33,222 nucleotides of DNA from Euzebya sp. (lineage in GTDB: Bacteria > Actinomycetota > Nitriliruptoria > Euzebyales > Euzebyaceae): positions 1-33,222 of the forward strand of contig NZ_CAXQBR010000037.1 in the NCBI RefSeq assembly GCF_964222135.1, in the 5' to 3' direction. Shown one piece after another: positions 2,016-19,862 of the stretch; positions within the stretch are counted from its first letter, which is position 1; every line of letters begins with the position of its first letter. A program made the position numbers and the translations under genes. The notes under the pieces are model-generated. The model was not told the origin of the DNA and ran no database searches. It saw nothing but the letters and a program-made list of their open reading frames with translations.

Positions 2016-2725
2016 ACCCGAGACAGCGACGGGGCGTGCTGCTCATCGTCCTGAGCGTGGTCGGCGCGGTGGCGGTCGTCCTCGCGGTGTCCGGCTACGT
2101 GGCCGACGTCGGCCGCCAGGTCGGGCCGATGGAGCCGGTCGTGCGGCTGACGGTGGACGTCCGCGCCTTCGAGGCGATCCCCGCCGAGGCGGTCGAGGTC
2201 GTCGAGATGCCGGCGCGCTGGAAGCCCCCGCTCGCGCTGACGTCCGCCGCGGACCTGCAGGGCCGCGTCCCCGCCACCGACCTGCCGGCCGGGACCCTCC
2301 TCGAGGCCGGCGACGTGACCGCGCCACCCGAGATCGGGGAGGGGCAGCGCCAGATCGCCATCCTCGTCGACGCCGAGACCGGGGTGGCCGGCAACATCGG
2401 CGTCGGTGACGTCGTCGACGTCGTCGCCACCCGTGCGGGGTTCGACGGCGAGCCGGCCCGCTCGGAGATCACCATCCAGGGGGCCCGGATCCTGTCGATC
2501 GGCACGCCGCAGGTGGAGGAGGGGGTCGACCCCGCGACGGGCGCGTTCGCCGCGAACGAGGTCGTCCCGATCACGTTCGTGCTCGACACCGCGGACGTCC
2601 TGCGGCTCGCCTACGTCGAGAGCTTCGCCTCCACGGTCCGCCTGGCGCTGCGGGCGCCGGACGACGACTCGTCGCTGGACCCGCCCGAGCGGATCTACGC
2701 CCCGACCGGCGCCGGAGGTGCATGA
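2012..2725 (+). CDS. cpaB: CpaB/RcpC-like Flp pilus assembly protein
   Basis: 237 aa, ATG overlapping the previous stop (ATGA). One N-terminal membrane helix (residues about 8-30, LLIVLSVVGAVAVVLAVSGYV) is followed by an extracytoplasmic SAF-type segment with the family's hallmark (RVPATDLPAGTLLEAGDV), then a C-terminal beta-rich RcpC/CpaB domain (VGNIGVGDVVDVVAT-like region, ITFVLDTADVLRLAYVESF). CpaB proteins are periplasmic or extracytoplasmic parts of Tad systems; in diderms they work with the secretin, which a monoderm lacks. The length and the position before the CpaE gene match actinobacterial Tad clusters. Confidence 0.85.
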   Translation: MNPRQRRGVLLIVLSVVGAVAVVLAVSGYVADVGRQVGPMEPVVRLTVDVRAFEAIPAEAVEVVEMPARWKPPLALTSAADLQGRVPATDLPAGTLLEAGDVTAPPEIGEGQRQIAILVDAETGVAGNIGVGDVVDVVATRAGFDGEPARSEITIQGARILSIGTPQVEEGVDPATGAFAANEVVPITFVLDTADVLRLAYVESFASTVRLALRAPDDDSSLDPPERIYAPTGAGGA

Positions 2726-2726
2726 G

Positions 2727-4241
2727 ATGATCACCGTCCTCCTCGCCACGCCGTCCGACGAGCTCGCCGCGGAGCTAGAGGACCTGTCCGCCGAGGCGGG
2801 CACGTTCGTCATCGCCCCGCGGGTCGGGGACACGGTCGCGCTCAACTCGACGCTCGAGCTGACCGAGGTCGACGTCGTCCTGCTCGACTCCGGCATCGGG
2901 CCGCTGTCGGCGCTCGACGTCGCCCAGGACCTGACCACCCGCTACCCCGACACCGCCCTCGTCCTGCTGTCCGCGAGCGCGGATCCCGACGTGCTCGAGC
3001 GGGCGCTGCACGCCGGGTTCCGGGGGGTGATCTCGAGCCCCCTGTCCCTCGAGGCCGTGTCCACCAAGGTGGAGGCGGCGGGCGTGTGGTCCCAGCGGCT
3101 GCGCCACCGCCTGACCGAGCGGCCGGAGGACCGTCGGGGTCGGATGATGGTGGTCGCGGGCGCCAAGGGGGGTGTCGGCACCACGACGGTCGCGACCCAC
3201 CTGGCCCTCGAGGCGCAGCTGGCCAACCCCGAGCGGCGGGTCTGCCTGATCGACTTCGACCTGCAGTCCGGCGACGTGCGGACCCTGCTCGACCTGACCC
3301 ACCACCGCAGCGTCGACGACCTGGTCGAGGTGGCCGCCGAGGTCGGGTCCCGCCACCTGAACGACGCCCTGTACGCCCACCGGTCGGGTCTCCGGATCCT
3401 GCTGCCGCCGCCGCAGGGCGAGCACGAGGCCGACATCACCCCGGAGGTCGCCCGCGGGATCCTCGGCGCGATCCGCACCCGCTTCGACCTGGTGGTCGCC
3501 GACGTCGGGACGGTGGTGACGGACGGCGGGTCGATGGCGACCGAGCTGGCCGACGAGGTCCTCCTGGTCGTGACCCCGGACGTCCTCGCGATGCGCTCGG
3601 CCGCGCGGCTGGTCCAGCTGTGGGAGCGCCGCCGCTACCGCAAGGACGGCATCACCGTGCTGGTGAACCGCGCCAGCCGGGACACCGAGGTGCAGCCCGA
3701 CCTGATCGGACGGGTCCTGAAGCTGCCGGTGATGCGGGCGAACGTGCCGGCGGCGTTCCGCGACCTCGAGGCGGCGGTCAACACCGGCGTGCCCGACCGC
3801 CTGGAGGACGGCCCCGTCCGCCAGGGCATCCTCGCGGTCAGTCGTGAGCTCCAGCTCGTCAGGCCCCAGAAGCGCCGGTCGCTGTTCAGCCGCGGCGACG
3901 ACTCGGGGTCGGCGATCGTCGAGCTCCTGGGCATGGCCCCCTTCGCGCTGGCCCTGCTGCTGGTTCTGTGGCAGGTCGTGATCATCGGCTGGACGTACAC
4001 GATGGGGGAGCACGCGGTGCGGGAGGGCGCGCGGGAGCTCGCCGTCGCCGGCCTGGTCGGCGAGCAGGTGGAGCAGGTCGTCCGCGACGAGCTCCCCGCG
4101 TCGATGCGGGACGGCGTGTCGATCTCGACCGGCGCGTCCACGGTCTCCGCCGACATCCGGGTGCCGCTCCTCGCCCCCCGCTGGATGACCCCCTGGACCA
4201 TCACCGTCCAGCAGGGGACGGTGCGGGAGGTCGGGCTGTGA
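2727..4241 (+). CDS. cpaE: CpaE-type ATPase fused to a TadE-like pseudopilin
   Basis: 504 aa, ATG with GGAGGTG upstream. Residues 1-125 form a receiver-like domain (VDVVLLDSGIG, LVLLSASADPDVLERALHAGFRG). Residues 140-380 are a MinD/CpaE ATPase with GAKGGVGTTT and LIDFDLQSGDVRTLLDL. In CpaE this ATPase helps localise the pilus machine at the inner face of the membrane. The frame then runs without a stop into a second protein type: from about residue 389, RGDDSGSAIVELLG and a 23-residue helix (FALALLLVLWQVVIIGWTY), then MGEHAVREGARELAV, a classic TadE domain. G394 followed by E399 at +5 is a textbook type IV prepilin peptidase site. No ATG or GTG lies in frame close to the junction; the nearest is a GTG inside the ATPase. 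TadE is normally a separate gene, so this is a real fusion or an undetected sequencing frameshift. Confidence 0.9.
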   Translation: MITVLLATPSDELAAELEDLSAEAGTFVIAPRVGDTVALNSTLELTEVDVVLLDSGIGPLSALDVAQDLTTRYPDTALVLLSASADPDVLERALHAGFRGVISSPLSLEAVSTKVEAAGVWSQRLRHRLTERPEDRRGRMMVVAGAKGGVGTTTVATHLALEAQLANPERRVCLIDFDLQSGDVRTLLDLTHHRSVDDLVEVAAEVGSRHLNDALYAHRSGLRILLPPPQGEHEADITPEVARGILGAIRTRFDLVVADVGTVVTDGGSMATELADEVLLVVTPDVLAMRSAARLVQLWERRRYRKDGITVLVNRASRDTEVQPDLIGRVLKLPVMRANVPAAFRDLEAAVNTGVPDRLEDGPVRQGILAVSRELQLVRPQKRRSLFSRGDDSGSAIVELLGMAPFALALLLVLWQVVIIGWTYTMGEHAVREGARELAVAGLVGEQVEQVVRDELPASMRDGVSISTGASTVSADIRVPLLAPRWMTPWTITVQQGTVREVGL

Positions 4242-4594
4242 GCCTCCACCGCGACGAGCGGGGCGTGTACACCGTCGAGCTGCTCGGCATCCTCCCCCTC
4301 TTCCTCATGGTCGCCCTCCTGGCGTTCCAGCTGGCGATGGTCGGCGGGGCCATGAACATGGCGGAGAACGCCGCCCGGACCGGCAGCCGCATGGCCGGCA
4401 TGGGCGGGGACGGGCACGCCGCCGCGATGTCCGCGGTCGACCCGGACGTGCGGGACCGCACGTCGGTCAGCGGCGGCGGCGAGACGATCACGGTCGCGAT
4501 CGACGTCCCCGTGGTCATCCCGTTCATCGACCTCGACGTCACCACCATCCGGCGCTCGGCGACCCTCCCGCGCACCACGACGGGGGGCTTCTGA
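4238..4594 (+). CDS. tadE: TadE-like minor pseudopilin
   Basis: 118 aa, GTG start overlapping the previous stop (GTGA). A short basic leader (SLHRDERG) precedes VYTVELLG. The Gly before Val with Glu at +5 marks a prepilin peptidase site, followed by a membrane helix (ILPLFLMVALLAFQLAMVGGAM) and the amphipathic AENAARTGSRMA helix typical of TadE/TadF. The C-terminal part is a small beta-domain. TadE and TadF are minor pseudopilins needed for Flp pilus biogenesis. It follows the TadE domain fused to CpaE, so the locus encodes a tandem TadE pair, probably the TadE/TadF equivalents. The stop overlaps the next ATG (TGATG). Confidence 0.85.
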   Translation: MSLHRDERGVYTVELLGILPLFLMVALLAFQLAMVGGAMNMAENAARTGSRMAGMGGDGHAAAMSAVDPDVRDRTSVSGGGETITVAIDVPVVIPFIDLDVTTIRRSATLPRTTTGGF

Positions 4595-5934
4595 TGCCCC
4601 TCACCCACCGGGGCGGGCTGGGGGTCCCCGAGTCGTCGGAGGACTCGGCGGACACCCACGACGTCCGCCGCTACCGCGAGATGCTCCTCAGCGAGGTCGA
4701 CCTCGACGAGCTCGACGCGCTGTCGGCCACCCAGCGGCGGGCCCGGCTGGAACGCGTCGTCGGGCACCTGATCAGCCGGGACGGCCCGATCCTGTCCTCG
4801 GGCGAGCGGGGGGAGCTGATCCGCCGGGTCGTCGACGAGGCGCTCGGCCTCGGCGTCCTCGAGCCGCTCCTCGCCGACCCCGAGGTCACCGAGATCATGG
4901 TGAACGGCCCCGACCAGATCTACGTGGAGCGCAACGGCCGCCTCACCCGCTCCGCGACCCGGTTCTCCTCCGCCGAGCAGCTGCTGCAGACCATCGACCG
5001 GATCGTCTCCAAGGTGAACCGGCGGGTCGACGAGTCCTCGCCGATGGTCGACGCCCGGCTGCCGACGGGCGAGCGGGTCAACGTCATCATCCCGCCGCTG
5101 TCCCTGACCGGGCCGGTCGTGACCATCCGCCGCTTCCCCCGCGCCTTCACGATGGACCAGCTCAGCGGCATGGGCTCGGTGGACGAGGCGATGAGCTGGC
5201 TGCTCCGCGCCATGGTCCGGGTCCGCTGCAACGTGATCATCGCCGGCGGGACCGGCACGGGGAAGACGACGTTCCTGAACGCGCTCAGCGGGTTCATCGG
5301 CGACACCGAGCGCATCGTCACGATCGAGGACTCCGCCGAGCTTCAGCTCCAGCAGCCCCACGTCGTGCGGCTCGAGTCGCGACCCCCGAACGTGGAGGGG
5401 CGGGGTGAGGTGACGATCCGCGACCTCGTCCGCAACAGCCTGCGGATGCGACCGGACCGCATCATCGTCGGTGAGGTCAGGGGCGGTGAGACCCTCGACA
5501 TGCTCCAGGCGATGAACACCGGTCACGAGGGGTCGCTGTGCACGGTGCACGCCAACTCCGTCGACGACGCGGTGCTGCGCCTCGAGACCCTCGCGTCGAT
5601 GAGCGACCTCGACATCGCGTTCGAGGCGCTGCGGGACCAGATCGAGGGGGCCGTCGACGTGATGGTCCACCTGCGCCGCTACCCGGACGGCTCCCGCCGC
5701 GTCGGGCAGGTCGCGGTCAAGCGGGGGAGGGAGCGCGACGACTTCGCCCTCGACCCCGTGTCGGCGTTCGAGACCGACCCGATCGGGCCGGACCTGTCGG
5801 TCACCGGCCGCTTCGTCCACGGTCGGCTGCCGACGTGGTTGCGGGAGCGGTTCCGCCTCGCCGGCGTCGACGTCCACCCCGCGTTCGCGGACGACGGTCC
5901 GGTGCCCGTGGCGGCGGGGGGAGGGGTGGCGTGA
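4594..5934 (+). CDS. tadA: TadA/CpaF pilus assembly ATPase
   Basis: 446 aa, the hexameric secretion ATPase that powers Flp pilus assembly at the cytoplasmic membrane. The N-terminal domain contains the family signature [26 protein letters not shown]. The core has Walker [10 protein letters not shown] (K224), [12 protein letters not shown] (Asp box), [26 protein letters not shown] (Walker B region) and [12 protein letters not shown] (His box). All expected motifs are intact and the length is normal for TadA/CpaF. The last 60 residues are divergent and linker-like. It overlaps tadB by four bases (GTGA). Confidence 0.97.
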
Positions 5935-6860
5935 CGCCGACGACGGCGCTGTGGCTGCTGGTCGTGACGCTGGTGCTCGGCGTGCTCGGGATCATCAACC
6001 TCTCCCGGGGCCGCAGCCAGGAGCAGATCGCCCGTCGCCGGGCGCTGCTCACCCTCCGCAGCGAGCGGGTGCCGCCGTGGCGCCGGGGCGCGCACGCCGC
6101 GGTGCTGCGCACCCCGTTCGGCCGCTCGGTCGACGAGCGGTTGCGGCGTGCCGGCCACGAGGAGGTGCTGGCCGGCGACGCGGTCCTGAGCGTCCTCTGC
6201 GTCGGCGGGCTGATCCTGCTCGGCGCCCTGCAGCTGGTCGCAGCCGGCGCTGCGGTCGTGCTGGTCGTCGTCTGGCTGGTCAGCGCGAACGCCTACCTCG
6301 ACCGGTTGGTCCGCAAGCGCGCCGACCGCTTCGCCGACCAGCTCCCCGACATCGCGCGGGTCATGTCGAACGCCGCCGGCGCCGGCATGGCCATCCCGAA
6401 CGCGCTGGCGCTGACGGCCCGGGAGATGGAGGAGCCCGCCCGCACCCTCCTCGGCGACGCGGTCCGTCGCCTCGAGGTCGGCCAGAGCCTCGCGGGCGCG
6501 ATGGAGGAGCTCGCCCTGCGCGCCCCGTCCCGAGAGATGGCGGTGCTGGTCAGCACGCTCGTGATCCAGCAGCGCGCCGGCGGTGACGTGATCGAGGCGC
6601 TGCGCGAGATGTCGGTCAACCTCGAGCGCCGCCGCGACCTCCGCAGGGAGGTCGAGACCACCATGGCGGGCGTGCGGTTCACCGCGTTCGCGGTGATGGG
6701 CCTCGGCGTGGCCATGCTGTTCGTGATCGAGACGATCTCCGCCGGGACCCTGCGGCGCATGACCGAGCAGACCGCCGGCCAGATCATCCTGCTGATCGCC
6801 GCCGGCCTCTACGCCGCCGGCTACGCCGCGATGCGCCGGCTGTCGAAGGTCGAGGTGTAG
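5931..6860 (+). CDS. tadB: TadB inner-membrane platform protein (T2SSF domain)
   Basis: 309 aa, GTG start overlapping the tadA stop. A membrane helix at residues 5-24 is followed by a basic segment, two helices near residues 85-122 (VLSVLCVGGLILLGALQLV, AAVVLVVVWLVSANAYL), the T2SSF cytoplasmic domain with FADQLPDIARVMSNAAGAGMAIPNALALTARE, and two C-terminal helices (FAVMGLGVAMLFVIETIS, IILLIAAGLYAAGYAAM). The T2SSF family corresponds to GspF/PilC; in Tad systems TadB and TadC form the membrane platform on which the TadA ATPase works. Two bases separate it from tadC. Confidence 0.95.
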   Translation: MTPTTALWLLVVTLVLGVLGIINLSRGRSQEQIARRRALLTLRSERVPPWRRGAHAAVLRTPFGRSVDERLRRAGHEEVLAGDAVLSVLCVGGLILLGALQLVAAGAAVVLVVVWLVSANAYLDRLVRKRADRFADQLPDIARVMSNAAGAGMAIPNALALTAREMEEPARTLLGDAVRRLEVGQSLAGAMEELALRAPSREMAVLVSTLVIQQRAGGDVIEALREMSVNLERRRDLRREVETTMAGVRFTAFAVMGLGVAMLFVIETISAGTLRRMTEQTAGQIILLIAAGLYAAGYAAMRRLSKVEV

Positions 6861-6862
6861 CG

Positions 6863-7747
6863 GTGACCCCCGGGCTGATCGGGCTGGCGGCGCTCGGCGT
6901 GTACGCCGTCGCCCTGGTCGGGTTGCGGCTGGTGCGCACCCCCTCCGCAGGCCTCGTCGGCGTCGACGGCGGCGGGCCCGTCCGGGCCCAGCGGTCGCTC
7001 GTCGGCGCGCTCCACGCCGCCCTCGGGCGCCGCCTGGAGCCGCTCATCCGCCGCACGATGACCGAGGGGTCGCGACGCCGGCTCGAGCACTGGCTCGACG
7101 CGGCCGGCCGTCCGGACCGCTGGGGCATCGCCGACGTGATCCGGGCGAAGGGCGGCGACACCGGCATCTGCGTCCTCCTCGGGATCGGGGCGATGACCCT
7201 GCACCCGCTGCTCGGACCGGTCATGGTGGTCTACGGCTACCTCCGCCGGGACCTGCAGCTCCGCTCGGCCGCAAGGCGGCGGCAGGCGCAGATCGAGCGG
7301 GACCTGCCCGACTACCTCGACATCCTCGGCGTCACCGTCCAGGCCGGTCTGAAGTTCCGCGGGGCGCTGCGGCGGGTGGGGGAGCAGTTCGACTCACCGG
7401 TCGCCGAGGAGTTCCGCATCGCCCTGCAGCAGCTCGACGTCGGCGCGTCGCGGCGCGCGGCCTTCGAGGGCCTGCGCGACCGCAACGACAGCCCGTCGCT
7501 GAACCGCTTCGTCGGTGCCCTGCTGCAGTCCGAGGAGCTGGGCGCACCGCTCACCGACGCGATGGCGTCGATCGCGCGGGACATGCGGAAGGTGTTCAGC
7601 CAGAACGTCCGCCGGGACGCGGCGAAGGCGGCGCCGAAGGTCACGCTGGTCGCCACGGTCCTGCTGATGCCGGGTGCGGCGCTGCTGCTCATCGGCGGGC
7701 TGCTGATCGGCGGCGACATCCAGCTCGGGGGGCTGTTCGGTGGCTGA
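6863..7747 (+). CDS. tadC: TadC inner-membrane platform protein (T2SSF domain)
   Basis: 294 aa, GTG start two bases after the tadB stop. An N-terminal helix (LIGLAALGVYAVALVGLRLV) is followed by a basic region, a helix pair around GICVLLGIGAMTLHPLLGPVMVVYGYL, the T2SSF domain (ERDLPDYLDILGVTVQAGLKFRGALRRV), and a C-terminal helix (VTLVATVLLMPGAALLLIGGLLIGG). It pairs with TadB to form the platform. The 3' end overlaps the following sensor kinase gene by eight bases, which ties regulation to the pilus operon. Confidence 0.95.
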   Translation: MTPGLIGLAALGVYAVALVGLRLVRTPSAGLVGVDGGGPVRAQRSLVGALHAALGRRLEPLIRRTMTEGSRRRLEHWLDAAGRPDRWGIADVIRAKGGDTGICVLLGIGAMTLHPLLGPVMVVYGYLRRDLQLRSAARRRQAQIERDLPDYLDILGVTVQAGLKFRGALRRVGEQFDSPVAEEFRIALQQLDVGASRRAAFEGLRDRNDSPSLNRFVGALLQSEELGAPLTDAMASIARDMRKVFSQNVRRDAAKAAPKVTLVATVLLMPGAALLLIGGLLIGGDIQLGGLFGG

Positions 7748-8936
7748 TCGCACCTCCACCACGGCGGAGTCCCTGAGCGGCCTGGTCAAGCTGGCGGTCG
7801 ACCTCCGCCTGATCCTGCTCCTCATCGCCGGCGTGGTCGCCCTGGTCCAGGGCGCCGACCGCCGCGTGCTGATCCTCGTGCTGCTCGCCAGCTACGCCGG
7901 GGTCGGCGTGCTCCTGTGGTGGGACCGGCTGGCCGACGCGCTGCTGCGCCACCCGACGCTGTTCCTCCTCGACGTGGCCATCACCATCGGGATCCTCGTC
8001 GCGACCGGCGTCGACGGGCCGTTCGTGCTCTACACCATCTCGACGGCCTTCCTCGCCGGCGCGCTGTACGGCTACGCGGGCGGCGGGGTCTTCGGCGTCG
8101 GGATCGCCGTCGTCCACGTCGTCCTGGCCCTCCGCCTGTCGACGGCCGACATGACCTTCACCGCGCTCGTGTCCATCCCCGTCCTGGTCGTGGTGGCCGG
8201 ACTTGGGGCGTCGGCGCTCCGCGGGCTGCTGCTGCACGCCTCCGGCGTCGAGTCCGACCTCGAGCAGGCCGTCGCGCGGGGGGCGGCGTCGGAGGAGCGG
8301 GCGCGGCTCGCCCGGGAGATGCACGACTCCCTCGGCAAGACGCTGCACGGCATCGCCCTGGCGGCCACCGCCCTGCCGCAGTGGGTCGAGAAGCGGCCCG
8401 AGAAGGCTGCCGAGCAGGCCGCCCTGGTCGCCACGGCCGCGGAGACCGCGGCCCTGGAGGCCCGCCAGCTGATCAGCGACCTGCGCAGCGACAACCTCGA
8501 CGCGCCGCTGCACACCGCGATCGCCGACTGGGGGCGGGAGTGGGCCGCGCAGTCGGGCATCCAGCTGTCGCTCGCGGTCACCCCGGTCGGCGCGATCAGC
8601 GCGTCGTCGCGCTACGAGCTCTTCACCGTCCTGAGGGAGTCGCTGCGGAACGTCGCGGCCCACTCCGGCGCCTCCCGCGCATCGGTCTACCTGGCACGCG
8701 ACTCCGAGCTCGCGGTCCTCGAGGTCGCCGACGACGGCCACGGGGTCCCCTCGACTGACCTCGAGCAGCTCGCCGCCGAGGGCCACTACGGCCTGCTGGG
8801 CATGCGCGAGCGCGCGCGGCGCGCCGGCGGCGACCTGGTGATCCTCGACCGCGGGCGGGGCACCACCATCCGGGCCGAGGTGCCCGTGACGTCGGCGCAC
8901 GACATGGTGCGGCCGCCCGAGGAGGTCCCCACGTGA
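7740..8936 (+). CDS. NarL-type membrane sensor histidine kinase
   Basis: 398 aa, GTG start inside the end of tadC. About six membrane helices occupy residues 20-165 with no sizeable extracytoplasmic loop, so the signal is probably sensed in or at the membrane. Next comes a HisKA_3 dimerisation and phosphoacceptor helix (ERARLAREMHDSLGKTLHGIA, H195), then an HATPase domain with the N box (LRESLRNVAAHSGAS), DDGHGV and the GLLGMRERARRAGG loop. All catalytic motifs are intact. It overlaps the response regulator gene by four bases, forming a cognate pair. The location between tadC and flp, with pilin promoters sharing an operator, makes this pair the leading candidate regulator of pilin expression (inferred). 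Confidence 0.93.
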   Translation: MADRTSTTAESLSGLVKLAVDLRLILLLIAGVVALVQGADRRVLILVLLASYAGVGVLLWWDRLADALLRHPTLFLLDVAITIGILVATGVDGPFVLYTISTAFLAGALYGYAGGGVFGVGIAVVHVVLALRLSTADMTFTALVSIPVLVVVAGLGASALRGLLLHASGVESDLEQAVARGAASEERARLAREMHDSLGKTLHGIALAATALPQWVEKRPEKAAEQAALVATAAETAALEARQLISDLRSDNLDAPLHTAIADWGREWAAQSGIQLSLAVTPVGAISASSRYELFTVLRESLRNVAAHSGASRASVYLARDSELAVLEVADDGHGVPSTDLEQLAAEGHYGLLGMRERARRAGGDLVILDRGRGTTIRAEVPVTSAHDMVRPPEEVPT

Positions 8937-9571
8937 TCAGAGTCCTCATCGCCGACGACAACCCGGTGATCCGCGGCGGTCTCAGCGGCCTGCTCGACCT
9001 GCGCGACGACGTGTCGGTGGTCGGGGAGGCCGGCAACGGCAAGGAGGCGGTCGCGAAGGTCCGCGACCTCCGGCCCGACGTGACCCTGATGGACGTCCGG
9101 ATGCCGATCATGGACGGCATCGAGGCCACGTCGCAGGTGGCCGAGCAGACGGCCGTGCTGATGCTGACCTACGCCGAGGACGTCGAGATCGTGGGACGTG
9201 CCATCCAGGCGGGCGCCCGGGCGTACATCGTCCACGGGCGCTTCACGCCGGACGAGCTCGGCGACGCGATCCGCGAGGTCCACGCCGGGGGGACCCACGT
9301 CAGCCCCACCGTCGCACCCGCCCTGTTCGAGCTGGTGCGCACCGGCGCGACGACCGGCGGTCCGGGCAGCGCCGACGGGTTGACCGAGCGCGAGATCGAC
9401 GTGGTCAACCTCATCGCGCAGGGCCGCTCGAACGCCGAGATCGCCGAGGCGCTCTTCGTCTCGGAGAAGACCGTCAAGAACCACATCAACCGCGCCTACG
9501 CGAAGCTGGGGGTGAGCAACCGTGCCGAGGCGATCGCCAAGTGGCTGGGCACCAGCGGCCACCACCGGTGA
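8933..9571 (+). CDS. NarL/LuxR-type response regulator with a His in place of the conserved receiver Lys
   Basis: 212 aa, GTG start overlapping the kinase stop. The receiver domain (residues 1-118) has the acidic pair D8/D9, phosphoacceptor D54 (VTLMDVRMP) and the switch Thr (VLMLTYAED). Where most receivers have a conserved Lys (..YLLKD..), this one reads GARAYIVHGRF, with His in place of Lys and one extra residue. The C-terminal LuxR helix-turn-helix is canonical (LTEREIDVVNLIAQGRSNAEIA, VSEKTVKNHINRAYAKLGV). It is the last gene before the flp promoter. Phosphorylation by the adjacent kinase and binding to the shared pilin operator are inferred. Confidence 0.93.
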   Translation: MIRVLIADDNPVIRGGLSGLLDLRDDVSVVGEAGNGKEAVAKVRDLRPDVTLMDVRMPIMDGIEATSQVAEQTAVLMLTYAEDVEIVGRAIQAGARAYIVHGRFTPDELGDAIREVHAGGTHVSPTVAPALFELVRTGATTGGPGSADGLTEREIDVVNLIAQGRSNAEIAEALFVSEKTVKNHINRAYAKLGVSNRAEAIAKWLGTSGHHR

Positions 9572-9714: not shown

Positions 9715-9945
9715 ATGAGCTCGATCATCGCGCTGTACACCACCGCCCAGATGCTGGCCGAGCGCGGCCGCGACCGCCTGCGGGCGGAGGAGGGCCAGAC
9801 CTCGGTGGAGTGGCTCGGCATCGCCGCGGTCATCGTGGCCATCGTCGTCTTCATCGCGGGGGATCTGTCAGAGGGGATCGCCGGCACGATCCGCGACGCC
9901 TTCGAGGGCCTCATCGGCCGGGCCTCGGGCGCGGACGGCGGCTGA
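9715..9945 (+). CDS. flp: Flp-type major pilin
   Basis: 76 aa, the expected size for a Flp pilin. ATG at 9715 is chosen because AGGGGA sits 7-12 bases upstream and the promoter -10 lies at 9666, which rules out more upstream starts. A 27-residue charged leader ends in EEG, then QTSVEWLGIAAVIVAIVVFIAG. Gly at -1 and Glu at +5 form a prepilin peptidase site leading directly into the single hydrophobic pilin helix, followed by a short C-terminal tail (GTIRDAFEGLIGRASGADGG). The mature chain would be about 49 residues. It probably forms the pilus fibre. No prepilin peptidase gene is visible in the window, so processing must rely on an enzyme encoded elsewhere. Confidence 0.93.
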   Translation: MSSIIALYTTAQMLAERGRDRLRAEEGQTSVEWLGIAAVIVAIVVFIAGDLSEGIAGTIRDAFEGLIGRASGADGG

Positions 9946-10041: not shown

Positions 10042-11451
10042 GTGAGGGGGTCGTCCGGGGTGCGCAGGTCCTTCGCGGTGGTGTGCGCGCTGCTGCTCGT
10101 CGCGGGCTGCAGCGGCGGGAGCGACCCGGAGGTCGCCGGCCCGACCACCGTGCCCCCGCCGGACGCGGGCGCCTCCGCGACCGCGTCGCCGACCGAGGCG
10201 CCCACGACCGAGGCGGCCACCGAGCCCGAGCCGACCGAGGAGGAGGACGACGAGGACGTCGCCTACCCCTCCACCTCGCGGTTGCGGGACCTCGGGGCCG
10301 CGGCGACCTGCGACCTGATCGGCGACGAGTACTGCGACGACGCGAACGGCAACCTGTGGCCGGACTTCGTCGAGTCCGAGCTCGGCCAGGACCCCGCGGC
10401 GGACGAGTGCACCCAGGACGACTGCGGCGGCGCCACCACCCAGGAGATCCTGGTCGAGACCCAGGACAACACCCTGTTCATCCTGGACGCCTCCGGCTCG
10501 ATGGCCGGCGACGCCGGCGGCGTCTCGAAGATGGACGCCGCGAAGCAGGCGCTGGTGGACTACGTGTCGGTGACCCCCGACTTCGCCGACCTCGGCCTGA
10601 TGGTCTACGGGCACCGGGGTGACAACTCCGACGCGGGCCGGGCCGAGTCCTGCGCCGGCATCGAGACCTTCGCCCAGATCGGCGACCTGACCCCGGAGAA
10701 CGCGGCCGACGTCGTCGGCCAGTTCAGCGCGACGGGCTGGACGCCGATCGGCGCGTCCCTCGACGCCGCCGGACCGGTGCTGCAGGCCGCGGCCGACGCG
10801 GACGCCGCCGAGGGCCTCGAGGGGGCGACGAACCGGATCATCCTCATCTCCGACGGCATCGAGACCTGCGACGGGGACCCGGTCGCCTCGGCGCAGGCCC
10901 TCGTCGACCTGGGCATCCAGGTGGTCGTGGACGTGATCGGCTTCGACCTGGCCGAGGCCGACCGCGCGGCGCTGCAGCAGGTGGCGGACGCCACCGGCGG
11001 CATCTACCGGGACGCCGCGAACGCCCAGGGGCTGCGCGACGCCCTGCGGGAGTACATCGCCCAGCGCGCCCAGGTGCAGGAGGTCATCAACTGCCGCATC
11101 CGCGCCGACGCCGCCAACGGCAGCTGCCGGGTCAACTTCGCCGCCGACGCGCTCAGCGTGCTGCTCGCGGAGGGGGAGGAGGCCCGTCGTTCCGACGACC
11201 TCGCCGAGCGCGAGCGGGGCCGGTTCATCGGGCGGTGGGCGCTCCAGGTGGACGACGAGTACGAGGACGTCCGCCAGCAGATGCAGTCCGACGCGACCGC
11301 CAGCCTGGAGGAGCTGCAGGCAGAGATCGCCGAGTCGCTCGAGCGCTCCGAGGAGATCCTCGGGCAGTTCCAGAAGGTCGCCCTCCGGCCGACGTTCACC
11401 TGCCCCTACGACGACGACGTCGGCGGCGACCAGGGGGTCCAGCTGGCATGA
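10042..11451 (+). CDS. vWA-domain lipoprotein, Tad-associated
   Basis: 469 aa, GTG start with GGAGG upstream. A signal peptide ends in lipobox LLVAGC, then a Pro/Thr/Glu-rich linker and a Ca-binding-like stretch (DDANGNLWPDFVESELG, flanked by Cys) reminiscent of thrombospondin type 3 repeats. The von Willebrand A domain (residues about 140-340) has a complete metal site: D149-x-S151-x-S153 (DASGSM), T234 (WTPIGAS) and D271 (SDGIETC). The C-terminal 130 residues form a probable coiled helix with further Cys (NCRIRADAANGSC, FTCPYDDD). It should be anchored outside the membrane. vWA proteins accompany Tad pili as adhesins or assembly factors; its ligand is unknown. It overlaps the TadG-like gene by four bases. 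Confidence 0.85.
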   Translation: MRGSSGVRRSFAVVCALLLVAGCSGGSDPEVAGPTTVPPPDAGASATASPTEAPTTEAATEPEPTEEEDDEDVAYPSTSRLRDLGAAATCDLIGDEYCDDANGNLWPDFVESELGQDPAADECTQDDCGGATTQEILVETQDNTLFILDASGSMAGDAGGVSKMDAAKQALVDYVSVTPDFADLGLMVYGHRGDNSDAGRAESCAGIETFAQIGDLTPENAADVVGQFSATGWTPIGASLDAAGPVLQAAADADAAEGLEGATNRIILISDGIETCDGDPVASAQALVDLGIQVVVDVIGFDLAEADRAALQQVADATGGIYRDAANAQGLRDALREYIAQRAQVQEVINCRIRADAANGSCRVNFAADALSVLLAEGEEARRSDDLAERERGRFIGRWALQVDDEYEDVRQQMQSDATASLEELQAEIAESLERSEEILGQFQKVALRPTFTCPYDDDVGGDQGVQLA

Positions 11452-12563
11452 GGCGGCTGCGCGGCGGGGTGGACGGCGAGCGCGGCTCGGTGATCCCGAG
11501 CTTCCTGGTGCTCACGCTGGTGACGGTCGTGATGGGGGTGTTCTTCTTCCAGACCGGCCGCGCCACCGACCTCGGTGCAGAGGCGCAGACGGGCAGCGAC
11601 GCGGCGTCGCTGGCGGCCGCAGCTGACATCCGCCAGCAGATCCTCGAGTGGATCTACTCGGGCGCCTGGAACTACAGCCCCTTCGTCGTCAACGTGCTGC
11701 GCGCCCGCGGCGCCGCCCAGATGTACGCCGCCCGCAACGACGTGACGATCGAGGACTTCTCCATCACCACCGTCGGCTACCTCACCTACGACGTGCACGT
11801 GCAGTCCGCCACCCGGCGCGGTCTGACCGCCGAGGGCTACGTCGACGACGACCCCGAGGGCGGCACCGGGGAGTTCACCGTCGGCGACGGCGAGGTGGGT
11901 CGCCAGGAGGCCACCGCCCGCGTCGGCCCCGGCGCGGCGAGCTTCCTCGCGGAGGGCTACTGGAGCACCGGCAGCGGCGGGTTCGGGCCCGGCTCCGGCG
12001 GGTCGGCCACCACGTCCGCGGGGACCTGCGCGACCAGCCGTGCCGAGGTGCTCGACCTCGCCCAGCGCGCGGGGGTGAGCCCGCCGCCGGAGGGGACGTC
12101 GTTCCTCGAGCGGTACAGCGCCTGCGACGGCGCCTACGGCCGGGTGGCGGTGCGCCCGCTGGCGGAGGAGATGAAGATCTCGCTGCTGAAGCTCGAGGCG
12201 GCGATGGGCGAACCGCTGCAGATCAACTCCGCCTACCGGTCGCCGCAGGCGCAGGCGATCGTCTGCGCCCAGGTGACCGGGCCGTGCGCGGCACCGGGCC
12301 GCTCGATGCACCAGTCGGGGCTGGCCGTCGACGTGCAGAACTACCAGCGCGCCGCGGCGGTGGCGAACGCCGACCCGTCGATCGGCTTGTGCCAGCCGCT
12401 GCCGCGGAACGACGCGGTGCACCTCTCCCACCGGACCGGGCGGGAGTGCGGCGGCAACACGGGCACCGCCGGCGGGGGCGCGGGCGGCGGCGGGTTCATG
12501 CCCTTCGGCGGGTTCGCCAGCCTCTCCGCCCAGGCCGGCATCACCGTCCGGCTGGTGGAATGA
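11448..12563 (+). CDS. TadG-like protein fused to an M15-type D,D/L,D-carboxypeptidase domain
   Basis: 371 aa, ATG overlapping the previous stop. The N-terminus (DGERGSVIPSFLVLTLVTVVMGVFFFQTGRATDLGAEAQTGSDAASLAA in outline) is the TadG/TadE-like membrane segment of Tad loci. After a Gly/Ser linker near residues 170-195 comes a peptidase M15 domain: INSAYRSPQAQAIVCAQ, then SMHQSGLAVDVQ (zinc ligands H288 and D295) and VHLSH (H325, third ligand, with H328 nearby). M15B enzymes such as VanY trim the C-terminal D-Ala of peptidoglycan stems. The enzyme would be held outside the membrane by the TadG helix, suggesting local wall remodelling for pilus passage (inferred). A Gly-rich tail follows. The fusion is unusual, since TadG is normally linked to a vWA-like domain. 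Confidence 0.8.
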   Translation: MRRLRGGVDGERGSVIPSFLVLTLVTVVMGVFFFQTGRATDLGAEAQTGSDAASLAAAADIRQQILEWIYSGAWNYSPFVVNVLRARGAAQMYAARNDVTIEDFSITTVGYLTYDVHVQSATRRGLTAEGYVDDDPEGGTGEFTVGDGEVGRQEATARVGPGAASFLAEGYWSTGSGGFGPGSGGSATTSAGTCATSRAEVLDLAQRAGVSPPPEGTSFLERYSACDGAYGRVAVRPLAEEMKISLLKLEAAMGEPLQINSAYRSPQAQAIVCAQVTGPCAAPGRSMHQSGLAVDVQNYQRAAAVANADPSIGLCQPLPRNDAVHLSHRTGRECGGNTGTAGGGAGGGGFMPFGGFASLSAQAGITVRLVE

Positions 12564-13855
12564 GGCTGCGCCCCCTCCTGTGCGTGACCGCGCTGCTCCT
12601 GGCCCTGTGCGCCGGCCCGGCGGTCGCGCAGTCGCCGACGCCGACCCCCGGCCCGACGGCGGCGCCGCTGGGGGACGCGCCGGTGCTGTTGATCCTCGAC
12701 GCGTCCGGGTCGATGACCGCTGACGACGGGACCGGCCGCCCGAAGATCGATGCGGCCAAGGAGGCGCTGACCGAGCTGATCAGCGGTCTCGGACCCGAGG
12801 CGGCGGTCGGGCTGCGCGCCTACGGGCACCGCACCCCGAACACCGACCGCGAGGCCGGGTGCGCGGACACCGAGCTGCTCGTGCCGGTGGGGACCGGCAA
12901 CGCGGCGGCGCTGCAGCAGGCCGTCGACGGGCTGTCGGCCAGCGGGTTCACGCCGATCGGCGCGTCGCTGCGGGCGGCGCTCGAGGACCTGCCCGACGGC
13001 GCGGCGCGGACCGTGGTGCTGGTCAGCGACGGGATCGACACCTGCGCCCCGCCCGCCGCCTGCGACGTGGCGCGCGACATCGTCTCCGAGGGCGTGCAGC
13101 TGCGGGTCGAGACCGTCGGCTTCCAGGTCGACGCCGTGGCGGCGGAGGAGCTGCGCTGCATCGCCGAGGTCACCGGCGGCACCTACCGGCCGGCGGACTC
13201 TGCGGAGGACCTCGCCCGCGAGCTGCGGGCCTACCTGCCCACCGGCACCCCGATCCGCGGCGGCCCGACGCCGGAGCAGGCCACGACGATCGGGCCCGGC
13301 CAGTACGTCGACGTCCTCGCCCACCCCGAGGAGCGGTGGTACGCCGTCGACCTCGAGGCCGGTGACCGCGTCCGCGCGGTCGCCTCCATCATCGGCGACG
13401 CCGAGACGCCGGACATGCCGACCGCGACCGTCGAGATGTCGCTCGGGTTCGCCGACGTGATCGGGCTGGCCGGCTGCGACGACGACGCGGTCACCGGGCT
13501 CGGCCCGTTCACCCAGACCCTGGCGGTCGACGGGCTGCGGGTCAGGGGCGGCACGGTCTGCTCCGACCCCGGCCGCTACGTCATCGGGCTGCGCACCCCC
13601 GAGCCGGCCGAGCGCGACGACCGCCGCGCCCTCGAGGGGGTCGAGCTGCCCATCGAGCTGTTCGTCGCGGTCACCAGCGACCCGGTGGCCCCCGAGGCGA
13701 CCCCGATCGCCCAGCGGCCGGCGCTCGACGAGCCGCCACCGGTCGATCCCGGCCGGCGCCCGACGCCGACCAGCTACTACCTGGCCGCGGCCGGCGCCTT
13801 CGCGATCATCGGCGCGGTCGGCGGGATCGTCATCTCGCGGAGGCTGGGGCCGTGA
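12560..13855 (+). CDS. Secreted membrane-anchored vWA protein
   Basis: 431 aa, ATG overlapping the previous stop. A Sec signal peptide (LLCVTALLLALCAGPAVA, probable cleavage after residue 23) leads to a Pro/Thr linker and a vWA domain with an intact metal site (DASGSM at D47/S49/S51, FTPIGAS, SDGIDTC). Residues about 240-390 form a beta-rich domain beginning GQYVDVLAHPEERWYAVDLEAGDRV, and a C-terminal helix (YLAAAGAFAIIGAVGGIVIS) with a basic tail anchors it. The beta-domain is paralogous to the whole next protein (13852-14607). Binding partner unknown. The GTGA overlap with the next gene implies one operon. Confidence 0.85.
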   Translation: MRLRPLLCVTALLLALCAGPAVAQSPTPTPGPTAAPLGDAPVLLILDASGSMTADDGTGRPKIDAAKEALTELISGLGPEAAVGLRAYGHRTPNTDREAGCADTELLVPVGTGNAAALQQAVDGLSASGFTPIGASLRAALEDLPDGAARTVVLVSDGIDTCAPPAACDVARDIVSEGVQLRVETVGFQVDAVAAEELRCIAEVTGGTYRPADSAEDLARELRAYLPTGTPIRGGPTPEQATTIGPGQYVDVLAHPEERWYAVDLEAGDRVRAVASIIGDAETPDMPTATVEMSLGFADVIGLAGCDDDAVTGLGPFTQTLAVDGLRVRGGTVCSDPGRYVIGLRTPEPAERDDRRALEGVELPIELFVAVTSDPVAPEATPIAQRPALDEPPPVDPGRRPTPTSYYLAAAGAFAIIGAVGGIVISRRLGP

Positions 13856-14607: not shown

Positions 14608-15704
14608 CCACCCGCCGGCGACGCCGCCGCGCGGCCGCCGTCGGGGTGCTGCTGCTCGCCGTCGCGGGGTGCGCCCCGGTGGGCCGGGTGCTGGGCGGCG
14701 ACCAGCCCACCCCCGGCCTCGACCCCGTCGCGGTGCTGCCCACCGGACAGCCGTCGCCGCCACCCGACGCGGGGACCGGCGGAGCGGCATCCAGCCCGCC
14801 GGTCGAACCGACCGCCACCACGCCCCCGACCACCACCGCACCGGCACCGGTGACGACGCCGTCCGCGGACGACGTCCCGCCCGATGACGAGCACGCGACC
14901 GGCGACCAGGACCCGTCGGGCGACGCGGCGGTGGAGGCGGCGCTGGTCGCCGCCCGGGTCCCCCAGCTGATCGCCGTCGACGGATCGGCCGCGATGGCGG
15001 AGCGGTTCGGCGCGGGCACCCGGCAGGCGGCCGCGGCCACCGCGGTCGAGCGCCTGTCCCTCGCCGCCCCCGACTTCGTCCCCCTCGGGCTCGCCAGCTT
15101 CGGCGATGCCGGCGGCGCGGACACCGCCGGTCGTCTCGAGTCGTGCTCGAGCGTCACGACCCACGCCTCTCCCGGCGAGGTGGAGGTGGGTGCCGCTGAC
15201 GTCGCCGGCCGACCTGGGGCGGTCGGGTGGCGTCCGCTCGCGGCGATGCTCGACCTGGCCGCACCGGCGCTCGCCGCCGCCGGCCAGCGGACCGGCGACC
15301 ACGGCGCGCCGCCCGGTCGGCTGATCGTGATCACGAGCGGGGCGGACAGCTGCGGGGAGGACGTGCTCGGCGTGCTCGATCGGCTCGGCGACGACGCGCC
15401 GGTCGTCGACGTCATCGCCCTGGCCGCCCCACCGGACGACCTGGCGTTCCTGGCTGACCTCGCCGGACGCAGCGGCGGGACGGTCGCGGCTGCCGACGGA
15501 CCCGAGGGGCTCTCGGCCGCCGTCGACCGGCTCGCGGCGCGACCCGCCGACCTGGTCCGCACCGCCGCCTGCGGCGGTGACCGACGTGAGCCGGGCGCGC
15601 AGTCGCCCCTCGCCGCCGCGCTGGCCAGCGTCGACGCCGCCGCCGAGCGGGTGCCCGAGGCGCACGCCCCCGCACCGACGAGCTGTCGGGACGGAGGGTC
15701 GTGA
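14604..15704 (+). CDS. Lipoprotein with a metal-site-degenerate vWA domain
   Basis: 366 aa, GTG start. Arg-rich n-region, lipobox LAVAGC, a long Pro/Thr linker to about residue 105, then a vWA-like domain. Compared with the two vWA proteins upstream, all metal-site elements are damaged: VDGSAAM replaces DASGSM (second Ser lost), GWRPLAAML replaces G(F/W)TPIGASL (Thr to Arg) and ITSGADSC replaces ISDGIETC (Asp to Gly). It therefore probably does not bind a divalent ion and may be a structural or decoy subunit. It sits in the same operon, overlapping genes on both sides by four bases. Confidence 0.75.
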   Translation: MTTRRRRRRAAAVGVLLLAVAGCAPVGRVLGGDQPTPGLDPVAVLPTGQPSPPPDAGTGGAASSPPVEPTATTPPTTTAPAPVTTPSADDVPPDDEHATGDQDPSGDAAVEAALVAARVPQLIAVDGSAAMAERFGAGTRQAAAATAVERLSLAAPDFVPLGLASFGDAGGADTAGRLESCSSVTTHASPGEVEVGAADVAGRPGAVGWRPLAAMLDLAAPALAAAGQRTGDHGAPPGRLIVITSGADSCGEDVLGVLDRLGDDAPVVDVIALAAPPDDLAFLADLAGRSGGTVAAADGPEGLSAAVDRLAARPADLVRTAACGGDRREPGAQSPLAAALASVDAAAERVPEAHAPAPTSCRDGGS

Positions 15705-16039
15705 CCGACCGGCTGGTGGTCGACGGCCGTGACGTCGCAGCGCTCGAGGTGGCCCGGACGGCCCGGACCCGCAGCCGCGGGCTGCTCGGCCGCGACGGCA
15801 TCGACGGCGCGATGTGGCTCGCACCGGCCAAGCACGTCCACAGCCTGGGCATGCGCTTCGACCTCGACGTGGCGTTCGTCGACGTCGACGGGCTGGTCCT
15901 GCACACCCAGCGGCTGCGCCGCAACCGCAGCTCGCGGCTGGTCTGGCGGGCCAGGGCGGTCATCGAGGCCGAGGCGGGCGCCTTCGAGGGGTGGGGGCTC
16001 ACCCCCGGCGTGACCGTCGCGGTCCCGCCCCGCCAGTGA
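15701..16039 (+). CDS. DUF192 family protein
   Basis: 112 aa, GTG start overlapping the previous stop. The sequence carries the DUF192 hallmarks: ARTRSRGLLGRDGIDGAMWL, the HVHSLGMRFDLDVAFVD strand pair, and VIEAEAGAFEGWGLTPG near the C-terminus. No signal peptide. The molecular function of DUF192 is not established; its small beta-domain often lies near type II secretion or Tad genes, as here at the end of the vWA operon. Confidence 0.85.
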   Translation: MTDRLVVDGRDVAALEVARTARTRSRGLLGRDGIDGAMWLAPAKHVHSLGMRFDLDVAFVDVDGLVLHTQRLRRNRSSRLVWRARAVIEAEAGAFEGWGLTPGVTVAVPPRQ

Positions 16040-17778: not shown

Positions 17779-19578
17779 GTGAGGACGGTCGCCAGGGCGT
17801 GCCGTGGCGACCGCGGCCAGACCACCGTTGAGTGGCTGGGCGTCGCCGCGGTGTCGGTGGCGATCATCGTCGCGCTCATCGCGATCGCCGGCCGTCTGGG
17901 CGAGCAGATCCAGTCCGCCTCCGAGGCGGAGATCTGCCGCGCGGCGACCGACGACGACTGCGGGGGAGGGGCGGGCGGCGGTGCCGCGGACCAGGTGGCT
18001 GACGTCGACGGCTCGGGCACGGCCGGCGACGCCGTGGGCGGGGACGCCGACGGGGGCGACGCCGCGGCGGGTGCGGGGGCTGACGGCGGGTCGGCGGCGG
18101 ACGGGGGTGCGGCCGCGTCCGGCGGTGGGGGCGGGGGCGACGCCGGCGGGGACGACGGTGGCGGCGGGATCGGTGGGCTGATCAGCGACATCGGCGGCGG
18201 GATCGCCGACGGGGTCGGGGCGATCGGCGGGGGCATCGCCGACGGGGTCGGGGCGATCGGTGGCGGCATCGCCGACGGCGTCGGTGCCGTGGGCGGCGTC
18301 GTGGCGGACGCCGGGTCGGCCGTGCTGGGGGTCGGCGAGGCCGCGGTCGACGGCCTCGGGACCGTCGTGGGCGGGGTGGTCGACGGCACGGGCGCCCTGC
18401 TGAACGGCTTCGTCCTCGGCGACTACGGCGGCAGCGAGGACAGCGGGGTGCTCGAGACGATCCGCGTCGGGGGGCAGATCCTCTCCGGGATCCTGATCGT
18501 CGGCGACGTCCGCGACGGGGTGCGGGCCGTGCAGCACGGCGACGAGGTCACCCTCGGCCTCATCGCCGTCGGGCTCATCCCCGGCTACGGCGACGTCATC
18601 CGCGGCGGCAGCACCGCGGCGGAGGCCGCCATCGACGGGGCCCGCGCGGTCGACGACGTCGCCGACGCGGCTGCGGACGCGGGCCGTGCCGGTGACGACG
18701 CGGTCCGGGCCGGCGACGACGCAGGCGACGCGGTCGCCGACGGGCGACGCGGCGACTTCTGCAGCTTCGGGGCGGGCACGCGGGTCGTGATGGCCGACGG
18801 CACCTCGAGGCCGATCGTGGACGTCCGCGTCGGCGACCGGGTGCTCGCCGCAGACCCGGCGGTGGACCGGTGGTCCATCCGCACGGTCACGGCCACGTGG
18901 GTCCACCACGACGTGCTCGTGGAGCTCCGGACGGACCGCGGGACGGTCGTCACGACTGCCGACCACCCGTTCTGGGACGACGTCGACGGCGACTGGGAGG
19001 CGGCGGGGACACTCGACGCCGGAGACCGGCTCCGGACGACCGGGGGCGATTCGATCGCGATCGTGGGCGTCGACGCGAGTGACCCGACGACCGCCCCCGC
19101 CCACAACCTCACCGTCTCCGGTCCGCACACCTACGCGATCGACGTCGGCGGCGCGGCGGTGCTGGTCCACAACCAGAACGGGTGCGACGCCCCGCCGGGA
19201 GGCGGTCTCGAAGGGCACGAGGGCCCCAACCCCGGGCAGGGGCACACCATCGAGCGCCACGTCGGGCGGACCGACCAGCAGCTGATCGACCGGGCGAACG
19301 GCCCGAACGCCCCGACGGCCGCCTCGACGTTCCCCGACCTCGACACCGCCAACCGGGCGGTGGGGACTGTGATCACCGAGAACCCCGACGTCGTCGCCGA
19401 CATCCTGGCGTCGGGGCAGCGCCAGGCGATCGAGGCGCACCTCCCCACCACCACCGGCAGGGTCGTGCAGCGGGGCAGCGACGTCGTCGAGGAGGTCAAC
19501 GGCGTGCGGGTCGTCATCCAACCCGACCCGAGCGCGCCGGCCGGCTACACGATCATCACGTCCTACCCTGTGCCGTGA
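17779..19578 (+). CDS. Flp-pilin-headed polymorphic toxin: pilin helix, stalk, Hint domain, RNase A-like toxin
   Basis: 599 aa, GTG with GAGGAGG eight bases upstream. Residues 1-13 are a basic leader ending in Gly; QTTVEWLGVAAVSVAIIVALIAIAG follows with Glu18 at +5, a complete prepilin site and pilin helix. Residues 50-215 form a Gly/Asp/Ala-rich stalk with three exact-frame GGGIADGVGAI repeats. Residues 225-325 look like a pretoxin segment (VGLIPGYGDVIRGG). A Hint domain spans C328 (CSFGAGTRVVMADGT) to H464-N465 (LVHN), with HPFWDDVDGDW and NLTVSGPHTYAIDVG, and all self-cleavage residues present. The C-terminus (about 470-599: HEGPNPGQGHTIERHVG, ASTFPDLDTANRAV, GVRVVIQPD, IITSYP) matches the RNase A-like CdiA-CT toxin family, keeping the His and Thr-x-Tyr residues. 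Contact-dependent RNase delivery on or by the Tad pilus is inferred. The stop overlaps the immunity gene. Confidence 0.88.
   Translation: MRTVARACRGDRGQTTVEWLGVAAVSVAIIVALIAIAGRLGEQIQSASEAEICRAATDDDCGGGAGGGAADQVADVDGSGTAGDAVGGDADGGDAAAGAGADGGSAADGGAAASGGGGGGDAGGDDGGGGIGGLISDIGGGIADGVGAIGGGIADGVGAIGGGIADGVGAVGGVVADAGSAVLGVGEAAVDGLGTVVGGVVDGTGALLNGFVLGDYGGSEDSGVLETIRVGGQILSGILIVGDVRDGVRAVQHGDEVTLGLIAVGLIPGYGDVIRGGSTAAEAAIDGARAVDDVADAAADAGRAGDDAVRAGDDAGDAVADGRRGDFCSFGAGTRVVMADGTSRPIVDVRVGDRVLAADPAVDRWSIRTVTATWVHHDVLVELRTDRGTVVTTADHPFWDDVDGDWEAAGTLDAGDRLRTTGGDSIAIVGVDASDPTTAPAHNLTVSGPHTYAIDVGGAAVLVHNQNGCDAPPGGGLEGHEGPNPGQGHTIERHVGRTDQQLIDRANGPNAPTAASTFPDLDTANRAVGTVITENPDVVADILASGQRQAIEAHLPTTTGRVVQRGSDVVEEVNGVRVVIQPDPSAPAGYTIITSYPVP
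18193..18291 (+). repeat. Three tandem 33-bp units in the toxin stalk
   Basis: Units at 18193, 18226 and 18259 each encode GGGIADGVGA(I/V), 11 residues, in frame. The copies differ mostly at third codon positions. Such a repeat allows length changes of the stalk by slippage or recombination. Confidence 0.85.
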
Positions 19579-19862
19579 TCCTGCACCCCGAGCTCAGCCG
19601 CTACCTCGTCGCCTACCTCCACCCGGACTGGGACGCGGAGTTCTCGACCGTCGACGCCGCGTTCGACGCGTTCCTCGACGACATCGGCCCCGAGGAGCGG
19701 GCCGCGGTGGCCGGCTCCCTGGACGACGCCGTCGCCGCGGGCGACGAGGCGATCGCCGAGGAGGTGCGCGACCTCGGGTGTGGGTGGTGGCCCGGCGACG
19801 ACGCCGGCGCGCACGTCCGGTGGTTCGTGCGGATGCGGGACGCCGCCCGGGCGCGCAGCTGA
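19575..19862 (+). CDS. CdiI-like immunity protein for the RNase A-type toxin
   Basis: 95 aa, GTG overlapping the toxin stop (GTGA). The sequence (ELSRYLVAYLHPDWDAEF, AAFDAFLDDIGPEERAAV, an acidic EAIAEEVRDLG helix, then WWPGDDAGAHVRWFVRMRDAA) has the Y-x-x-x-DWD head and compact acidic helical build of the CdiI_2 family, known immunity partners of CdiA RNase toxins. The net negative charge suits binding to a basic RNase surface. No signal peptide, so it acts in the cytoplasm and protects the producer and its kin. Position directly after the toxin supports the pairing. Neutralisation is inferred from family and context. Confidence 0.8.
   Translation: MILHPELSRYLVAYLHPDWDAEFSTVDAAFDAFLDDIGPEERAAVAGSLDDAVAAGDEAIAEEVRDLGCGWWPGDDAGAHVRWFVRMRDAARARS

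Follow-up and report, generated by a model that had tools for sequence, protein, structure and literature searches.

The 33,222-nucleotide contig NZ_CAXQBR010000037.1 of Euzebya sp. (positions 1 to 33,222, forward strand; hereafter, the window) carries a Tad pilus operon in which the gene at 11448 to 12563 encodes a TadG-type anchor joined to a zinc peptidase of the M15 fold. This architecture had been proposed from the letters alone, and a match to the Tad family PF13400, structural matches to M15 folds, and conserved zinc ligands bore it out. We propose, with a probability of roughly 0.56, that this TadG-type minor pilin of a monoderm Tad pilus brings a wall-cutting M15 peptidase to the pilus exit or tip. 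The observations behind the proposal are the domains themselves, the fold, the conservation of the ligands, the linkage to the operon, and the variety of modules found on related proteins.

The open reading frame (ORF), on the plus strand, starts with ATG, is open throughout, and encodes 371 amino acids. Its product begins with a short positive stretch, a hydrophobic helix, and a DAASLA motif typical of Tad/TadG proteins and has the M15-type region at its C-terminal end. Pfam placed the Tad family at residues 13 to 60 (23.3 bits; cut-off, 22.3), and in the homologue alignment the DAA and LA of this DAAALA-type motif were invariant. For the M15B/VanY profile, which the sequence-only reading had in mind, VanY (PF02557) was the best Pfam match, but the match was partial (residues 244 to 301) and at 23 bits fell under the cut-off of 25; M15_3 and M15_4 were weaker. 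In a VanY scan of the whole genome, the gene scored 25.4 together with neighbouring pieces, and two further M15 genes were found, both lacking a Tad helix. A phmmer search of the full protein against the PDB gave unrelated weak matches only, scans of genome contigs and viral contigs with the single protein as a query gave no match, and searches of plasmids gave no Tad-M15 fusion. Homologues at the same operon position were 29 to 54% identical. Since these homologues exist and other Tad-M15 fusions occur in distant families, a chance fusion is excluded. A frame artefact or chance motif was likewise ruled out by the homologues, the fold, and the ligands, and a lone odd fusion was ruled out by the genome census described below.

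Residues 196 to 345 were modelled with AlphaFold2 from 23 sequences, including 3 cellular and 19 viral-contig M15 sequences. The model (predicted local distance difference test [pLDDT], 85; predicted template modelling score, 0.82) matched Ply500, VanXYc, and LdcB best among PDB entries (E values, 4.5e-4 to 9.5e-4; probability, 1.00), followed by VanY, LysB4, LysECD7, ChiX, a zinc DD-peptidase, VanX, and the hedgehog fold. In the VIA comparison, LysB4 and Ply500 (Z, 9.2) tied with VanXYg (Z, 9.1). The zinc ligands named in the sequence-only reading, H288, D295, and H325, were indeed found at these residues and were invariant together with three intact homologues and 19 viral-contig M15 domains; R264, Q269, and S286 were likewise invariant in the viral-contig alignment. 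Alignment, domain model, and PDB matches agree on the fold and the H-x6-D...H zinc ligands of M15/LAS peptidases, and the domain is predicted to adopt this fold with invariant ligand residues.

The specificity assigned beforehand, that of a D,D/L,D-carboxypeptidase, was not borne out. The M15B carboxypeptidases VanY and LdcB have a Glu three residues ahead of the last His ligand (E-x-x-H), and this Glu is absent here. The acid preceding the last His is Asp322 (D322-A-V-H325), as in the M15C L-Ala-D-Glu endopeptidases, which have an Asp as the catalytic acid. The same position is occupied by Asp120 in ChiX and Asp130 in Ply500 but by Glu181 in VanX and Glu204 in LdcB, and Asp120 of ChiX is required for peptidoglycan cleavage and secretion (PMC5778951). 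Because Asp322, as in ChiX and Ply500, replaces the Glu of VanX and LdcB, the carboxypeptidase label is unsupported. A Trp near the active site is conserved among M15C enzymes (PMC10487532); no Trp corresponding to W114/W109 of these enzymes was found between residues 300 and 345. Since Asp322 fits M15C but the M15C Trp is missing, the sequence cannot settle the specificity, and an endopeptidase would be at least as likely as a carboxypeptidase.

The full-length AlphaFold2 model (five sequences; pLDDT, 62) contained helices at residues 16 to 45, 49 to 70, and 83 to 96 and strands at 99 to 110, 113 to 122, and 152 to 159. Foldseek with this low-scoring model returned noise only. VIA placed residues 214 to 342 on M15 folds (Ply500; Z, 8.2) and residues 44 to 164 on pantothenate synthetases (Z, 6 to 7.6), and we take the latter to reflect a common alpha-beta arrangement in the model. 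A C-terminal last-strand motif was present in 29 of 32 family C-termini and in 46 of 586 other ORFs; the rows are related and the motif was first read off the family itself, so the P value is nominal. It was common to long forms with and without the enzyme. Because this strand is conserved after the enzyme as well as in enzyme-less forms, the sequences look as if the enzyme had been inserted into the TadG head, before its last strand. The best tree of the N-terminal regions required at least five module changes, while its strongly supported branches still allow one origin each; two of its rows are very long, and it does not resolve the order and number of module swaps.

That the gene lies inside a pilus operon was confirmed by the genes for TadA, TadB, TadC, TadE, and Flp alongside it. 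It shares 4 bp (ATGA) with the VWA gene on either side, and the genes that follow are chained by GTGA overlaps. Both neighbouring VWA proteins carry export signals. The prior view that the M15 domain stands in place of the usual adhesive domain also held: the adhesion-type VWA domains are encoded by the separate flanking genes and are not fused to TadG.

In a survey of 66 genomes of the class, Nitriliruptoria, this TadA type was present in 11, and all 10 genomes with this TadG type were among these 11 (Fisher P = 5e-11, counting species as independent; the eleventh TadA genome is only 53% complete). At the loci examined, the gene was near TadA-B-C, a kinase pair, and often VWA genes, in the same order. 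The fusion proved recurrent: 6 of the 11 TadG loci of the class encode M15, five of them intact (G000, G002, G018, G023, and G039) and one degenerate (G058). Furthermore, G017 has an M15A/LAS-like domain and G015 a possible NlpC/P60 domain, recognised by a motif and by low scores (Pfam, 0.02; CwlO, 0.32).

Relatives across the phylum appear from their sequences to carry different wall-cutting modules on the same scaffold. Among 396 genomes sampled from Actinomycetota, 20 encode a Tad helix, VanY/M15, and an SLT lytic transglycosylase in one protein (in one example, SLT at 4.7e-19, VanY at 9.5e-16, and Tad at 2.9e-4), and a TadA-like ATPase was encoded elsewhere in all 10 tested genomes with such a fusion. 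Compact proteins consisting of a Tad helix and M15 were found in about 17 genomes, with the ligands intact except where the match was cut off; one of them matches the Rv3654c family of TadE-like proteins (TIGR03816). A TadA-like gene lay within a few kilobases at 7 of 10 compact loci viewed; none was present at L093 and L030, and L229 ends at a contig end. An M15A/LAS-like module (SWHY..GAxDVN...GHFDHLHVD) occurs in three of the sampled genomes and in Solirubrobacter soli; it matched phage tape-measure proteins at 2.5e-21 and had no match in Pfam and weak hedgehog matches only in the PDB. In the S. soli TadG (L031, 7839 to 9359), which is divergent from a Tad operon, this module is accompanied by a further C-terminal domain with matches to phage tape-measure and endolysin families.

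How the protein might work can be sketched from published systems. TadG, CpaL, and KilN have been modelled as tip minor pilins exposing a modular C-terminal domain (PMC12075869, PMC12607857), TadG of A. actinomycetemcomitans has been detected in pilus preparations (as cited in PMC12607857), and extrusion of the Streptococcus sanguinis pilus is promoted by LytF, a peptidoglycan hydrolase that is a protein of its own (PMC13192262). From LytF and these tip models we infer, by analogy, that the protein delivers its cutter to the point where the pilus emerges. The N-terminal helix would hold the protein in the membrane with its head facing outside, and the protein would join TadE and other minor pilins and prime pilus assembly. 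The peptidase would thereby be carried to the growing tip or the exit site, where it would open the peptidoglycan of the cell itself by cutting stem peptides or cross-links, so that the pilus could pass; in other lineages, the scaffold would bear hydrolase modules of other kinds. Catalysis, a place at the tip or base, and the own wall as the substrate are the inferred parts of this scheme. The suggestion that the enzyme opens the wall for a pilus, made in the sequence-only reading, gains support, strengthened by the predicted hydrolase domains of other kinds on related scaffolds. Its description as membrane-held agrees with the N-terminal anchor but gives only half of the likely picture, as recent work puts TadG-type proteins at the pilus tip.

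Several observations weigh against such a role. The canonical prepilin Glu5 is absent (the sequence is G13-SVIPS), and the full-length model, poor as it is, does not show the C-terminal strand. The homologue in G058 (L023, 8323 to 9264) has a degenerate site, LLNWGLALETS, and no VHF; it may be a pseudoenzyme, in keeping with a role in binding. The M15-SLT fusions viewed adjoin TadE-like genes near uvrC/rapZ, outside a full Tad operon. Since 3 of the 11 TadG loci of the class (the second G018 locus, G034, and G059) and 11 TadG proteins of the large-genome genus g57 have no enzyme domain, the domain is dispensable for some Tad pili. This genus is presumably Streptomyces.

The features around the gene are listed in Table 1, in which the CpaB/RcpC-like and TadZ-like names are ones we assume from operon position. 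At the end of the operon, at 15701 to 16039, is a gene for a DUF192 protein (PF02643). Other Tad loci also have homologues of it next to them, and ORFs with weak similarity to it stand beside compact Tad-M15 loci. Just downstream of the operon, the gene at 17779 to 19578 encodes a protein in which Pretoxin HINT and bacterial RNase A (CdiA-CT) domains come after a Flp-type leader and helix, and the end of this gene is overlapped by a CdiI_2 immunity gene (19575 to 19862). A second prepilin-leader protein resembling a polymorphic toxin was found at a Tad locus of G015: it exceeds 1,200 amino acids, is cut by the contig end (L026, 3 to 3689), has a Flp-type leader and 26 RHS repeats, and adjoins the NlpC-like TadG gene. 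A 440-amino-acid protein with a Flp-type leader and no Pfam family is encoded at 22460 to 23779 of the window. Proteins of similar size and leader occur at L019 (15880 to 17220), L021 (6779 to 8098), and L023 (5259 to 6557), and most end in a YLD...VPW..C-like motif. No known RNA families were found in the window.

Table 1. Positions of the TadG-M15 gene, its parts, and the neighbouring operon genes in the window
Feature	Position	Strand	Basis
Minor pilin of TadG-like type, M15 peptidase domain apparently inserted, 371 amino acids	11448..12563	+	PF13400 Tad 13-60, VanY 244-301; homologues at matching operon position
Tad helix at N terminus, then putative pilin-like alpha-beta region, about residues 1-158	11448..11921	+	PF13400; AlphaFold2 helices and strands, low confidence overall
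M15 zinc peptidase domain, residues 196-345	12033..12482	+	Alignment, AlphaFold2 pLDDT 85, M15-fold PDB matches
Zinc ligands H288 (12309-12311), D295 (12330-12332), H325 (12420-12422); catalytic Asp322 (12411-12413); R264		+	Alignment
Conserved C-terminal strand motif ITVRLVE, 3' of enzyme domain, common to enzyme-less TadG proteins	12540..12560	+	Motif count
Upstream VWA-domain gene, lipoprotein-like signal, ATGA overlap	10042..11451	+	PF00092/PF13519; homologues beside Tad operons
Downstream exported VWA-domain protein, C-terminal hydrophobic segment, ATGA overlap	12560..13855	+	PF13519 1.6e-10
Flp-type pilin (GQTSVEWLG... leader and helix)	9781..9942	+	Motif scan; same place in homologous operons
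TadA/CpaF-type ATPase	4594..5934	+	Copies 64-80% identical in homologous operons
TadB- and TadC-type platform proteins	5931..7747	+	Homologous pairs in complete operons
TadE minor pilin	4070..4591	+	PF07811 7.3e-8
CpaB/RcpC-like and TadZ-like genes, approximate limits	2021..4055	+	Syntenic homologues
Sensor kinase and response regulator inside operon	7740..9571	+	ORFs; conserved in homologous operons

Instead of cutting, the domain might bind peptidoglycan and so anchor the pilus to the wall at its base or tip. The G058 homologue, which keeps the region though its motif is lost, would suit such an anchor, and hydrolase-dead domains can bind, as EndoT5 D130A binds its substrate (PMC10487532). 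We nevertheless consider it unlikely: all other M15 homologues of the class, 10 aligned M15-SLT homologues, and the complete compact forms retain the ligands and the catalytic acid, and the occurrence of hydrolases from other families in this position points to catalysis. The affinity to VanY, the best Pfam match, and the appearance of VanXY, LdcB, and VanY among the best fold matches would also be compatible with a stem-peptide-trimming carboxypeptidase like VanY or LdcB that serves wall maturation or glycopeptide tolerance and uses the Tad helix merely as an anchor. Replacement of the Glu by Asp322, the strict co-occurrence with TadA, the existence of related scaffolds that bear a lytic transglycosylase or other modules, and the conserved C-terminal TadG strand make this very improbable.

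Another substrate to be weighed is the wall of other cells, which a cutter at the tip might breach in the manner of a phage tail, perhaps delivering nearby prepilin-leader toxins. In favour of this are the HINT-RNase A toxin with its Flp-type leader and immunity gene, the Rhs protein with a Flp-type leader beside the NlpC-like TadG of G015, the match of the M15A-like module to phage tape-measure proteins (given above), and the Myxococcus Tad pilus, which kills on contact and has exchangeable tips (PMC12075869). Only two of the scanned Tad loci showed linkage to a toxin, and related fusions are present in small genomes (1.5 to 2 Mb), where no search for such toxins was made; we regard attack on target cells as rather unlikely. 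A broader version, in which Tad pili of Actinomycetota bear tip wall cutters that are used also on other cells and deliver prepilin-leader polymorphic toxins (HINT-RNase A in the window, Rhs in a relative), is highly speculative. Opening of the cell's own wall for the pilus is the reading we prefer.

If it is correct, a built-in hydrolase gives a direct and testable answer, for Actinomycetota, to the question of how Tad pili pass through the wall, for which the literature names no enzyme. The variants with M15, M15 plus transglycosylase, M15A-like, and perhaps NlpC-like modules provide named genes for testing, and the idea of exchangeable Tad tips would be widened from recognition to catalysis. 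Modular pilins are already known (PMC6916266, PMC10191384), and according to a paper from 2025, Tad pili had no known peptidoglycan hydrolase. Within the literature covered, which lacked most subscription papers, a hydrolase as a pilin module appears to be new, with priority unproven.

In fold, H-x6-D...H zinc site, and Asp catalytic acid, the enzyme part resembles the M15C endopeptidases Ply500, LysB4, and ChiX, but it is fused to a pilin-type anchor and lacks the conserved Trp near the site. With the M15B enzymes VanY, LdcB/DacB, and VanXY it shares the fold, the SxHxxGxAxD motif, and an SGYRS-type arginine motif, whereas Asp322 stands instead of their catalytic Glu and the VanY profile is matched in part. 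Phage tape-measure and endolysin muralytic domains include the same kinds of modules for piercing walls (PHROG matches), here found on a cellular pilus protein. LytF of S. sanguinis is a peptidoglycan hydrolase that helps a type IV pilus to emerge across a thick wall; however, it is a separate secreted protein serving the Com pilus and is not fused to a pilin, as the enzyme is here. Like the TadG/CpaL/KilN minor pilins (PF13400), the protein has an N-terminal Tad helix, a head that may be pilin-like, an extra module, and a gene in a Tad operon. The known modules of those pilins are VWA or prey-recognition domains, whereas here VWA domains are encoded by separate neighbouring genes and the module is a predicted peptidoglycan hydrolase domain, apparently placed before the last strand.
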